From Bacteroidaceae bacterium (GTDB lineage: Bacteria; Bacteroidota; Bacteroidia; Bacteroidales; Bacteroidaceae), in contig JAFSPM010000024.1 of the NCBI GenBank assembly GCA_017442855.1, positions 145,685 through 209,684 on the forward strand: a stretch of 64,000 bases of DNA. The letters run 5' to 3'. Below the pieces are notes generated by a model that saw only the letters and a list, made by a program, of their open reading frames with translations, searched no databases and had not been told where the DNA came from. The position numbers and the translations under genes were made by a program. Shown here piece by piece: positions 35,176-38,273 of the stretch. Position 1 is the stretch's first letter. Every line of letters begins with the position of its first letter.

Positions 35176-36006
35176 TTACCTGTCTGCTTGAATGTTCCAA
35201 GTACAGCAATTCAACGCTCCACCTTCTCGAACAATATTGTCGCAATCCCATATCGGATGACATTCACATTTAGGAAATGCCTCTGCTATCTGCTTGAATG
35301 CAATCTCTGCGAGTTTGTCTTCCAGCATAGGGATAAAGAGATGCTGGCCTACATGTAAGAAGTTGATATAAGCCCAACTTTTATCTGTGTTAGTGTCATA
35401 ATGAAGTTCGGAAATATCGAAATGAGGTTTTAGTGCAGAAATGAGTTTCTTTCGTAAGGCTTTGTCAAAATCACAATAATTATTGAGCAACACACAACCA
35501 TCACCCATGTATCTCACCATCCCATCTGCATGACCATACTCATCATAGTAATCTTCTGGTATTAGAATGATTTCTGTCTCCAATAATTTACTTAGCTTGT
35601 CAATGAGTATGTTATGATTATAATTTGAATTCTCCCTATAAATCTTGTCTGTCATAATCACCTTGTCACCACAACTAATGACATTACCTCCATCAATAAT
35701 GATGTCGGAATTGATGACATGTATACCAAGTTCTTGGAGGATGGAGGATTTGTCAGGCTTGTATTCAGGGTTGTCTTTTAGATAGTTAGGACTGTAGTTG
35801 AATCTGACAAACTTCTCTTTGTTTACTTGAACGGGCATATAGTCGCGAGCCCAAATATGGTATGGGGATGAGGCGTTAGGTAGATAGCTCCATTCAATTC
35901 CTTTGCTATGCATGATGTCTAAAAGATGCCTTGTTGCATTTACATAAGCATGAAAAGTCATTCCTTTTGCAAGTAAAACTTTATTAGTTTCAAAATTAGT
36001 AATCAT
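35176..36006 (-). CDS. agmatine deiminase / peptidyl-arginine deiminase-like protein
   Basis: A 276-residue member of the guanidino-group-modifying superfamily (PAD_porph). Motifs in order are WARDYMPV near 52, IDGGNV near 103, DEYGHADGMVRY near 155 and the active-site cysteine C267 in GGALNCCTW. AguA-type enzymes are usually about 350 residues with GIHC at the active site, so this is a shortened variant with Asn in place of His before the Cys. It may act on agmatine or another guanidine compound. No signal peptide is seen. No putrescine-pathway partner (aguB) is adjacent. Confidence 0.75.
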   Translation of the reverse strand: MITNFETNKVLLAKGMTFHAYVNATRHLLDIMHSKGIEWSYLPNASSPYHIWARDYMPVQVNKEKFVRFNYSPNYLKDNPEYKPDKSSILQELGIHVINSDIIIDGGNVISCGDKVIMTDKIYRENSNYNHNILIDKLSKLLETEIILIPEDYYDEYGHADGMVRYMGDGCVLLNNYCDFDKALRKKLISALKPHFDISELHYDTNTDKSWAYINFLHVGQHLFIPMLEDKLAEIAFKQIAEAFPKCECHPIWDCDNIVREGGALNCCTWNIQADR

Positions 36007-36046
36007 AATATTTTATTTATTGATATTTAAATGTTTACGTTTTATG

Positions 36047-36078
36047 CAAAGGTATGAAGAGATGCTCGTTCCTTCAAA
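36047..36078 (-). promoter_or_regulatory. promoter of the deiminase-like gene
   Basis: On the minus strand TTTG, 20 bases, TACCTTTG followed by CATAA. It is 41 bases upstream of the ATG. Confidence 0.65.
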
Positions 36079-36176
36079 CTTTTTATGTTAAAAGGCGGTT
36101 AAAGTTTTCGAAGGAGTTATTATAATTATATCATGGGAAAACTATCAAAAATAAACCATTACTTGTTTCTAAATCG

Positions 36177-36242
36177 TTTAGCGGTAGCTGGCAGGCCGTT
36201 TAACGGTAGTAAACGGGTGGCTTAACGGTACTAAGCTCTGAA
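36177..36242. repeat. three-copy repeat, 22-bp period (array A)
   Basis: TTTAGCGGTA at 36177, TTTAACGGTA at 36199 and CTTAACGGTA at 36221: three near-identical 10-mers exactly 22 bases apart, or about two turns of the helix. The right halves of the units are diverged. The middle unit lies within an inverted repeat, CCGTTTA (36196-36202) to TAAACGG (36210-36216). A related element, CCGTTTACTAGTAGTAAAGG, lies at 36261-36280. Confidence 0.8.
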
Positions 36243-36322
36243 ATTCTCTAGAAAATTTTGCCGTTTACTAGTAGTAAAGGAATCGCGAGCCCGTAGCGAG
36301 CCATTAAATTCTCTAGAGAATT
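36242..36322. repeat. two copies of a 16-bp palindrome
   Basis: AATTCTCTAGAGAATT at 36307-36322 is a perfect 16-bp palindrome. A copy with one change, AATTCTCTAGAAAATT, lies at 36242-36257, start to start 65 bases apart. Between them GCGAGCC occurs twice (36285 and 36295). Confidence 0.75.
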
Positions 36323-36340
36323 ATAGAGCGTGCTACGTTC

Positions 36341-36393
36341 TCGCAAAGGACGAGAACCGTTCTCGTTTGCGACGAGATACGTCCTCGTTTTTT
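36341..36393. repeat. long hairpin followed by a terminator-like stem
   Basis: TCGCAA and ACGAGAA on the left (36341-36356) pair with TTCTCGT and TTGCGA on the right (36360-36372), with only a three-base bulge and a CCG apex. Immediately after it, CGAG (36373) and CTCG (36384) pair across seven bases and are followed by TTTTTT (36388-36393), which could stop plus-strand transcription. Confidence 0.65.
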
Positions 36394-36396
36394 CTC

Positions 36397-36462
36397 CCTA
36401 GTTACAAAAAAAGATTTTCCTAGTTACTAAAAAAGTTTTTCCTAACGTTGCAACAGATCAAG
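36397..36462. repeat. three-copy repeat, 22-bp period (array B)
   Basis: CCTAGTTAC at 36397 and at 36419, then CCTAACGTTG at 36441. The first two 22-base units match at almost every position (CCTAGTTAC, a run of A, GA or GT, a run of T), and the third keeps only its left end. The period equals that of array A although the sequence is different. Confidence 0.8.
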
Positions 36463-36508
36463 AGAAATATAGGACACTAAAAAGTAAAGAAAAAGTTTTT
36501 GCAAAAAA

Positions 36509-36852
36509 CTCTTCACTCTTCACTTTTAGAGTATAATCTACTGGTATTTATACAATTAAAGGAGTGAAGAGTCTTTCCAACTCTTCACTAACTCTACACC
36601 ACCCTACACATATATAAATATTTGGCGCTTATAAAAGGCGATTTGAAAGGCTAATAAAGGGAATAAGACTTCAGCAAAAGTGAAAAGAGTGAAGAGTTAG
36701 TGAAGAGTGAGAGGCACTATTCACCAACATAACACATTATATAACAAAGTTTTACAACCAAATAGTGAAGAGTGAAGGGTGAAATCAAAATTCATTTTAT
36801 TTTTATTATAAAATGTAGTTGTCAAATCTCAGCATGGAAGATTAGTGAAGAA
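36509..36852. repeat. dispersed AGTGAAGAG motifs on both strands
   Basis: On the minus strand: 36509-36517, 36516-36524 and 36581-36589. On the plus strand: 36563-36571, 36688-36696, 36699-36707 and 36764-36772, with one-base variants at 36679, 36771 and 36844. Tandem copies are spaced by 7 bases where they abut. The 36563 and 36581 copies form an inverted repeat with a 9-base gap. Confidence 0.8.
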
Positions 36853-36869
36853 ATAAATATGGAAGGTTA

Positions 36870-36901
36870 TTTGGCTTGGGTAAAGAAAAAGTGTATCTTT
36901 G
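36870..36901 (+). promoter_or_regulatory. metK promoter and leader
   Basis: TTTG, 20 bases, TATCTTTG followed by CAGA. The leader of about 72 bases contains a small stem, GTGG (36931) with CCAC (36956) enclosing TTGC/GCAA. It does not match any SAM riboswitch consensus that I can recall in detail. Confidence 0.7.
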
Positions 36902-36980
36902 CAGACGAATTACTATTATATATTAACAAGGTGGATGGATTTGCATTGCTTGCAACCACACTAAAAAATGCTAAAATATT

Positions 36981-38273
36981 ATGGGATACTTATTTACATC
37001 TGAATCGGTGTCGGAAGGACACCCAGACAAAGTGGCGGATCAGATATCTGACGCCATCCTTGACAAACTTCTTGCTTACGACCCTCAATCAAAAGTGGCT
37101 TGCGAAACGTTGGTGACTACCGGACAGGTAGTGCTGGCTGGTGAGGTAAAGACCAAGGCGTATATCGATATGCCATTGGTGGCTCGCCAAGTGATCAAGC
37201 GCATTGGATATACCAAAGGGGAGTATATGTTTGAAAGCAACTCATGCGGTGTGCTGAGTGCCATTCATGAACAGAGTCCTGATATTAATCGTGGTGTGGA
37301 GCGTGAAGACCCTATGAATCAGGGCGCTGGCGACCAAGGCATGATGTTTGGCTATGCCACCAACGAGACAGAAAACTTTATGCCGTTGTCACTGGATCTG
37401 GCTCATCGCATACTGAGAGTGCTGGCCGAGATACGTCGCGAAGGCAAGGTAATGACCTACCTCAGACCTGATGCCAAAAGTCAGGTGACCATTGAGTACG
37501 ACGACAATGGACAACCAGCACGCATAGACACTATCGTAGTTTCGACCCAGCACGATGATTTTATACAACCTGTTGACGATAGCAAAGAGTCTGAGGAGAA
37601 GGCCGACGAGGAGATGCTGACCATCATCCGCAATGATGTGAAGCAAGTGCTGATGCCTCGTGTGTTGGCTACCATCAAGGCCGAGCATGTAAGAAAGCTC
37701 TTTAATGATGATATTACTTTCCACGTGAATCCTACGGGCAAGTTTGTGATTGGTGGTCCGCATGGGGATACGGGTCTCACTGGACGAAAGATTATTGTTG
37801 ATACCTATGGCGGCAAGGGTGCTCATGGTGGTGGTGCTTTCTCTGGCAAAGACCCCAGCAAGGTGGACAGAAGTGCGGCTTATGCGGCACGACACATTGC
37901 CAAGAACTTGGTGGCCGCTGGTGTGAGTGACGAGGTGTTGGTTCAGGTATCTTATGCCATCGGTGTGGCAGAGCCAGTGAGCATCTATGTGAATACCTAC
38001 GGACGCAGTCATGTGAAGATGAGCGATGGTGAGATAGCCAAGGTGGTGGGGCGCTTGTTCGACCTCAGGCCCAAGGCAATAGAAGACCGACTGAAGTTGC
38101 GTAACCCCATCTATGAGGAGACAGCTGCTTATGGACACATGGGACGCGAGCCACAGACGGTGGTGAAGCATTTCCGTTCAATTTATGAGGGCGACAAAGA
38201 TGTGGAGGTAGAGCTGTTTACATGGGAGAAGCTGGATTATGTTGAAAAGGTAAAGCATGCCTTCGGTATTTAA
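36981..38273 (+). CDS. metK: S-adenosylmethionine synthase
   Basis: Makes SAM from methionine and ATP. The 430 residues are longer than E. coli MetK (about 384) because of an insertion of charged residues after the first third ([13 protein letters not shown]). The N-terminal [15 protein letters not shown] holds the catalytic His and metal Asp, [10 protein letters not shown] near 113 binds ATP, and [14 protein letters not shown] near 258 with [19 protein letters not shown] near 283 complete the active site. Its last 17 bases overlap the next gene. It has its own promoter after the repeat region. Confidence 0.97.

Follow-up and report, generated by a model that had tools for sequence, protein, structure and literature searches.

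A gene-free region of a Bacteroidaceae genome, between a deiminase-like gene and metK, carries repeats that recur every 22 bp. The locus raises the question of what these repeats are: binding sites of a replication protein, a regulatory element of a neighboring gene, or DNA without function. They lie in a stretch of 64 kb that was analyzed as a whole (here, the window). A first-pass annotation had described two unrelated arrays, A and B, with this exact period, and had proposed iterons of a relic origin, a regulatory platform for metK or the deiminase-like gene, or an unknown protein-binding site.

A 22-bp-pitch array in one register

The six sites of arrays A and B are where they had been placed: TTTAGCGGTA at 36177, TTTAACGGTA at 36199 and CTTAACGGTA at 36221, then CCTAGTTAC at 36397 and 36419 and CCTAACGTT at 36441. 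The unit at 36221 begins with C and so matches TTTARCGGTA in 9 of 10 positions. The period is real as well. Lag 22 ranked above all other lags from 8 to 59 when 300-bp windows were moved in 10-bp steps over the whole 64 kb (score 0.44), and in the gap at 36007-36880 it scored 0.450, compared with a maximum of 0.417 over all these lags in 500 dinucleotide shuffles. The two arrays are not unrelated, being the ends of a single array: they share one register (36397-36177 = 10 x 22), and the rows between them (36243-36396) are in phase, with a AATTCTCTAGA-type unit, TTACTAGTAGTAA, AATTCTCTAGAGAATT and the CGAGAACCGTTCTCG type. With the DNA laid out in 22-base rows, four unit classes were distinguished, T (TTACTASTAGTAA), X (AATTCTCTAGAGAATT), G (CGAGAACCGTTCTCG) and C (CCTAGTTAGG), and most units of the window array are dyad-symmetric.

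~36177..36462, no strand: 22-bp-pitch array of ~13 rows, four unit classes in one register
36177..36286, no strand: T-class units, with TTTARCGGTA relics at 36177/36199/36221, clean TTACTAGTAGTAA at 36265-36277 and one X-like unit at 36243
36307..36323, no strand: X-class palindrome AATTCTCTAGAGAATT
36335..36391, no strand: G-class units of the CGAGAACCGTTCTCG type (TRF: period 22 over 36349-36390)
36397..36444, no strand: C-class units, CCTAGTTAC being a degenerate CCTAGTTAGG (TRF: period 22, 92% match)

The window copy is degenerate, and a stricter survey (40/66) detected no lag-22 region in the window. Better-kept copies elsewhere have a stronger lag 22 (0.51-0.62 over 200 bp; L002-L008).

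Distribution of the arrays

A search of the window's own genome with this region gave 19 matches, itself included, and a cleaner copy gave 41 at E<=1. Lag 22 was the strongest in 7/7 other own-genome loci that were read, and several of these keep the class order T-X-G-C. Clean T pairs in this genome, with gaps of 4-16 allowed, had a step of exactly 22 bp in 8/8 cases, and the control gave 0 matches. In the genus, C pairs matched in 7 of 157 genomes (reversed control, 1 match); the matches listed measure 30 nt, which corresponds to the 22-bp step, except for a few of 29 or 31 nt. Exact C pairs were found in 92 stretches of named genomes. The 80 listed all have Bacteroidales labels (once only Bacteroidetes) and come mostly from rumen, omasum and horse-gut MAGs; they include Prevotella ruminicola KHT3 and P. 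communis E15-14.

The pitch is shared more widely than the sequence of the units. A survey of lags 5-60 in seven genus members (980 kb, window excluded) gave 28 regions at lag 22, seven at 23, seven at 7, six at 11 and three at 21, with at most three at every other lag. Other genera of the same order had two regions each at 22, 23 and 21 in 694 kb, and E. coli K-12 had none at lags 21, 22 or 23 in 150 kb. The unit sequences of the surveyed arrays are mostly unrelated to one another. Dyad symmetry exceeded column permutation (p<=0.05) in 8/30 22-bp, 5/9 23-bp, 1/5 21-bp and 0/6 11-bp arrays, a few of which come from outside the genus.

At the DNA level, a plasmid or phage source of the array was rejected: a query with L003:1470-1720 found no match in 72,556 plasmid records and none in phages, and the exact T-pair and C-pair patterns were absent from viral contigs. 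A single gene family beside the arrays was also rejected, since no family occurred more than three times among the 54 of 67 flanking proteins that were scanned (Sulfatase 3, Bac_DNA_binding 2); among the other 13 are the L225 and L244 vapE genes, and part of the remainder was scanned separately. With two array-flanking proteins matching Bac_DNA_binding, the HU family is a candidate array binder. An HU-family gene also lies divergent from a BT4734/VapE gene (L392:1020-1643).

Several further observations concern this repeat-rich DNA. CTARYTAG sites 22 bp apart occur in the same gaps of two MAGs of ~87% DNA identity (L102/L161, L111/L133, L116/L134 and five more), and some of these pairs are better kept than their flanks. 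Two single-contig genus genomes have 23-bp-pitch arrays of CACCCGGGTG-type palindromes (L263:19120, L266:1561, L268:5911). A 44-bp repeat array, CTCCTGTTTAGGGGAGGAGTT..., is located at C15:46146-46380 of the own genome (L223:6104-6424). Adjoining lepA, a short reading frame that ends where a T-class array begins (L233:9601-9765) is presumably a truncated DUF1294 gene.

VapE genes and a probable orphan leader

The genes directly 3' of three compound arrays of the own genome (C15, C6 and C47) encode VapE-like/DUF5906/DUF3874 proteins. A PF05272 search of seven genomes identified 26 such genes in six of them. A 22- or 11-bp array (at least 40/66, within 800 bp) was present upstream of 11 of 23 vapE genes compared with 8 of 314 other genes from own C15, G053 and G099 (Fisher p 6e-10); the 23 each have at least 130 bp of upstream DNA, three of the 26 being left out, and they include orthologues, so that the counts are not independent and do not represent 23 separate events. 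In the genus sample, only 3/28 lag-22 and 2/6 lag-11 regions have a vapE gene within ~1 kb, and four single-contig genus genomes have arrays and no vapE hit in the 400 kb sampled. P. communis vapE has no array upstream, and three distant VapE records, two virome scaffolds and one from Bacteroides, lack clear iterons. A 22- or 11-bp array stands just before the start codon in six long VapE members, and is absent from that position in the members of 672-677 aa and 830-841 aa that were read; one long member, when scanned, had a BT4734-like N-terminal domain. VapE matches PDB 7pds, which we take to be SaPI Rep, with the description 'similar to D. nodosus vapE' (E 3.4e-5). Among the plasmid records, 73 encode VapE-like proteins (<60% identity), as do 438 phage records, and PADLOC linked 0/3 proteins to defence.

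The window contains DNA of the kind that precedes these genes, together with a second repeat module.

36388..36801, + strand: block homologous to VapE gene leaders (89% to own C15, 80% over 434 bp to G097:C226)
36507..36780, no strand: iteron-like module, 7 exact AGTGAAGAG in both orientations around AT-rich DNA

The match to the own-genome C15 leader extends over 418 bp and ends ~210 bp before the vapE start codon; G097:C226 is the VapE leader of a relative. The copies of AGTGAAGAG are at 36509-, 36516-, 36563+, 36581-, 36688+, 36699+ and 36764+ (sign, strand), seven in the window compared with a shuffle mean of 0.003, and 0/290 random 400-bp stretches had more than four copies of any 9-mer. 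DNA between the sets of AGTGAAGAG is 66-76% AT, compared with 55% in the window. One feature of SaPI/PICI-type Rep origins, clustered short repeats in both orientations around AT-rich DNA, is thus found in the window. Another, an adjacent gene for an initiator helicase of the VapE/SF3 type, is found beside the parent copies in C15, C6 and C47 and not here, as no VapE ORF was detected in the 64 kb; the earlier remark that no replication gene is near is accordingly true of the window copy and wrong for its parents. The window copy has the shared leader and no second terminal module.

Downstream of the repeats is metK, with the following signals on its strand.

36894..36901, + strand: TATCTTTG, which we take to fit the Bacteroidetes -7 box consensus; candidate metK promoter
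36925..36984, + strand: SAM-II riboswitch of metK

If TATCTTTG is the metK promoter, the repeats would lie upstream of the metK transcript. The riboswitch directly precedes metK; similar DNA precedes metK in close relatives, and DNA further upstream differs. The deiminase-like gene (35176-36006) belongs to the Porphyromonas-type peptidyl-arginine deiminase family (PF04371). It and a hypothetical gene separate TerB-DnaJ from metK in the window and are not found there in G053 or G099, where the TerB-DnaJ gene, recognized by eye, is directly upstream of metK. Among the five closest metK loci read, the array is missing in G053, G099, G063 and G097, and G065 alone carries an array in front of metK, of the T type. 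The more distant loci G032 and G125 have no array there; in G062 and G070 the DNA compared was metK itself, outside the leader. Given this absence from most metK loci of relatives, the sequence comparison identifies the window stretch as a lineage-specific addition and no conserved metK element. Absence of the 22-base phase from orthologous regions had been named in advance as evidence against a meaningful period; it is indeed absent at the metK locus, but the repeat family recurs at other loci. Because the block is homologous to VapE leaders, no vapE is present in the window and the array is missing at four of the five closest metK loci, the region looks like an orphan copy, MITE-like or relic, of a VapE-unit leader, and may be a leftover or parasitic replication origin.

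Comparison of complete loci bears on whether such units move. Own C15 and G097:C226 have in common one block (plus strand, E<=1e-5), which starts inside the T array, extends 3 bp beyond the stop codon of vapE and contains only the leader and vapE, with no recombinase. The own array extends further left, and nothing else matched in the 12-13 kb compared. The own C6 match ends at the stop codon in comparison with G053:C3 and G071:C89, and earlier with G099:C1 and G053:C1. In the C47 subfamily, inverted repeat modules are located at both ends (106/136 in own C47, 93/120 in G099). Own C44, between genes for a Na/Ala symporter and thiamin pyrophosphokinase, has both inverted terminal modules (80/107) and the array, and no vapE; the vapE of MAG RGIG2785 has one word on both sides. 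The common blocks ending at the vapE stop codon, the two-ended inverted modules and the gene-less C44 support the idea that the units are mobile and have derivatives that lack the gene.

Neither a clean empty site nor a target duplication was found for the own C15 and G099 C1 units among relatives: the right flank of the former had only short, weak matches in 3/8 relatives, and at the G053 locus that corresponds to the latter there is an array that mixes repeat words and lacks vapE. A ~12-kb island beside the G099 vapE unit (C1, ~145100-156700; L388, L363) is absent at the G053 locus.

Short VapE loci carry different clustered words, assigned by hand as AGTGAAGAG, AGTGGAGTG, ATGTCGGTA, AGGTGAAGG, AGGTTGTAA or GTCTTCAC. 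Among 13 of the 14 loci (L344, with coding-like upstream DNA, was left to the unassisted count), C-terminal identity was 73-99% in 10 same-word pairs and 22-59% in 68 different-word pairs, although in L349 and L356 a word other than the assigned one is the commonest 9-mer, and L355 has a tie. At helicase identities of 80-92%, the C-terminus was 73-91% identical in 5 same-word pairs versus 41-59% in 18 different-word pairs; G099 C1 and own C47, for example, differ in their words and have 92% identical helicases and 57% identical C-termini. With both flanks counted, the top 7-mers agree with the assigned words. In an unassisted 7-mer count of all 14 loci, 6/6 pairs with helicases 74-93% and C-termini at least 70% identical share at least four 7-mers that are present at least 4 times. 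Over the 43 pairs with helicases 74-93% identical, word sharing correlated with C-terminal identity at rho 0.33/0.31 and with helicase identity at 0.65/0.56, and four pairs (L335 and L346 with L353 and L356) have GTGAAGA-type words in common at a C-terminal identity of just 39-42%. Since the unassisted count agrees only in part with the assigned words, the apparent tendency of repeat word and C-terminal DUF3874 domain to vary together is no more than suggestive. SaPI Rep and Cch2 read origin repeats (iterons) via their C-terminal domain, according to passages of PMC7581432.

The T-X-G-C array recurs across short-VapE subfamilies. As evidence that the 22-bp array is the iteron of long VapE, the pair L348 and L357, with different units and C-termini 49% identical (helicase 93%), was rejected, being confounded by differing short downstream repeats.

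Competing explanations and known systems

The arrays could be intergenic repeats of the REP/BIME or BrickBuilt type, i.e., helically phased palindromes that are bound by a host nucleoid protein or other factor and spread without VapE, with VapE units merely residing in the same repeat-rich DNA. This would fit the 25/28 lag-22 regions that are not beside vapE, the many different unit sequences and the location of the C-pair sites, 0/82 of which are inside predicted ORFs. C pairs also occupy the same gap in 8 aligned pairs of loci from two MAGs, all chosen for both having one, with an offset in L102/L161. Of the 44 arrays of 21-23 bp, 14 occupy convergent, 15 tandem and five divergent gaps, six are in ORFs and four at edges; among background gaps of 80 bp or more, 98 are convergent, 274 tandem and 169 divergent. 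The excess of convergent (14 of 34 classified non-edge arrays) over divergent gaps resembles that of REPs. We nevertheless regard this explanation as unlikely, in view of the enrichment of arrays upstream of vapE, the common blocks of array, repeats and vapE at different loci, and the lack of a Y1/RAYT transposase. An origin from RAYT/REP elements was rejected on the last ground: Y1_Tnp (PF01797) had 0 hits in the own genome (80% complete assembly), whereas controls matched in 5/14.

Local 22-bp duplications by slippage followed by drift, leaving a minisatellite without function, would account for the degenerate window copy and for neighboring units that, by eye, are often more alike than distant ones. 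It is an improbable explanation of arrays in which a pitch of 22 leads all lags over 980 kb with unrelated units, dyad symmetry exceeds column permutation as above, and several own-genome copies repeat the unit classes in the same order and register. A role as operator of metK or of the deiminase-like gene, as had been suggested, agrees with the position between the two genes and with the T-type array of G065, and is very improbable given the four relatives that lack the array at metK, the SAM-II riboswitch of metK and the many unrelated genes that related arrays adjoin.

We therefore return to the VapE leaders. The region is probably, with modest confidence, an orphan, copied from the cis-acting leader that precedes vapE in chromosomal Bacteroidaceae units and has repeats that are read by VapE. 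A complete unit would consist of a 22-bp-pitch array, short iteron-like repeats and vapE; in some subfamilies, inverted copies of the repeat module stand at the two ends. VapE would bind the short repeats via DUF3874 and open them as a self-loading initiator helicase, like SaPI Rep, and the C15-type VapE would bind AGTGAAGAG and not the words of other leaders, AGTGGAGTG or CTTACAACC. Having the same word as the own C15 unit, the window copy could be a relic or a non-autonomous site served in trans by C15 VapE. The 22-bp array may be a second set of sites, bound cooperatively, in which each unit spans about two helical turns and the sequence is free to change as long as the pitch is kept. The first guess of iterons or a relic origin was thus right in kind, as the closest copies are directly 5' of VapE-like helicase genes with clustered short repeats, while the role assigned to the 22-bp array itself is our conjecture.

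A broader reading is offered only tentatively and is more doubtful. Bacteroidaceae chromosomes might carry nearly single-gene mobile units, composed of a VapE+DUF3874 initiator helicase and terminal iterons with no recombinase of their own, and the scattered 22/23-bp-pitch arrays might serve as their origins or be parasitic copies of these without the gene, each paired with a helicase of its own. A literature search of titles and abstract openings found no description of these units. With the VapE explanation, an unexplained intergenic repeat becomes a testable initiator-origin pairing, and the natural VapE series, in which the C-terminal domain and the adjoining word appear to vary together, predicts DUF3874 as the reading head. 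It is also a candidate explanation for some 22/23-bp arrays of Bacteroidales and for orphan origins within chromosomes.

Among known systems, REP/BIME elements with RAYT are clustered intergenic palindromes with species dialects and are few in divergent gaps. The arrays resemble them in all three respects, and differ in their strict 22-bp pitch and in the lack of a Y1_Tnp hit in the own genome. Plasmid iteron origins have direct repeats near the helical pitch beside an initiator, as here; the units described here are chromosomal, and their array DNA is without a match in plasmid records, though VapE-like proteins occur in some of these.

The BrickBuilt/PgRS MITEs of Porphyromonas gingivalis (PMC4596501) are likewise intergenic, multicopy and built of 23-nt tandem units in a Bacteroidales genome, and 22-nt repeats are mentioned too. 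They have one 23-nt unit and IS5-type terminal repeats, compared with the 22-bp unit of the window, and a word search of the paper text found no occurrence of helicase, iteron or palindrome. Closest to the proposed units are SaPI/PICI Rep with its iteron origin and SCCmec Cch2 with its direct-repeat origin (PMC7581432), which are alike in the related helicase, the short repeats beside the gene and the C-terminal domain as the likely reader. Compared with these, the Bacteroidaceae units are chromosomal and comprise little more than one gene, have repeats upstream or at both ends, and add a 22-bp-pitch array and gene-less copies.
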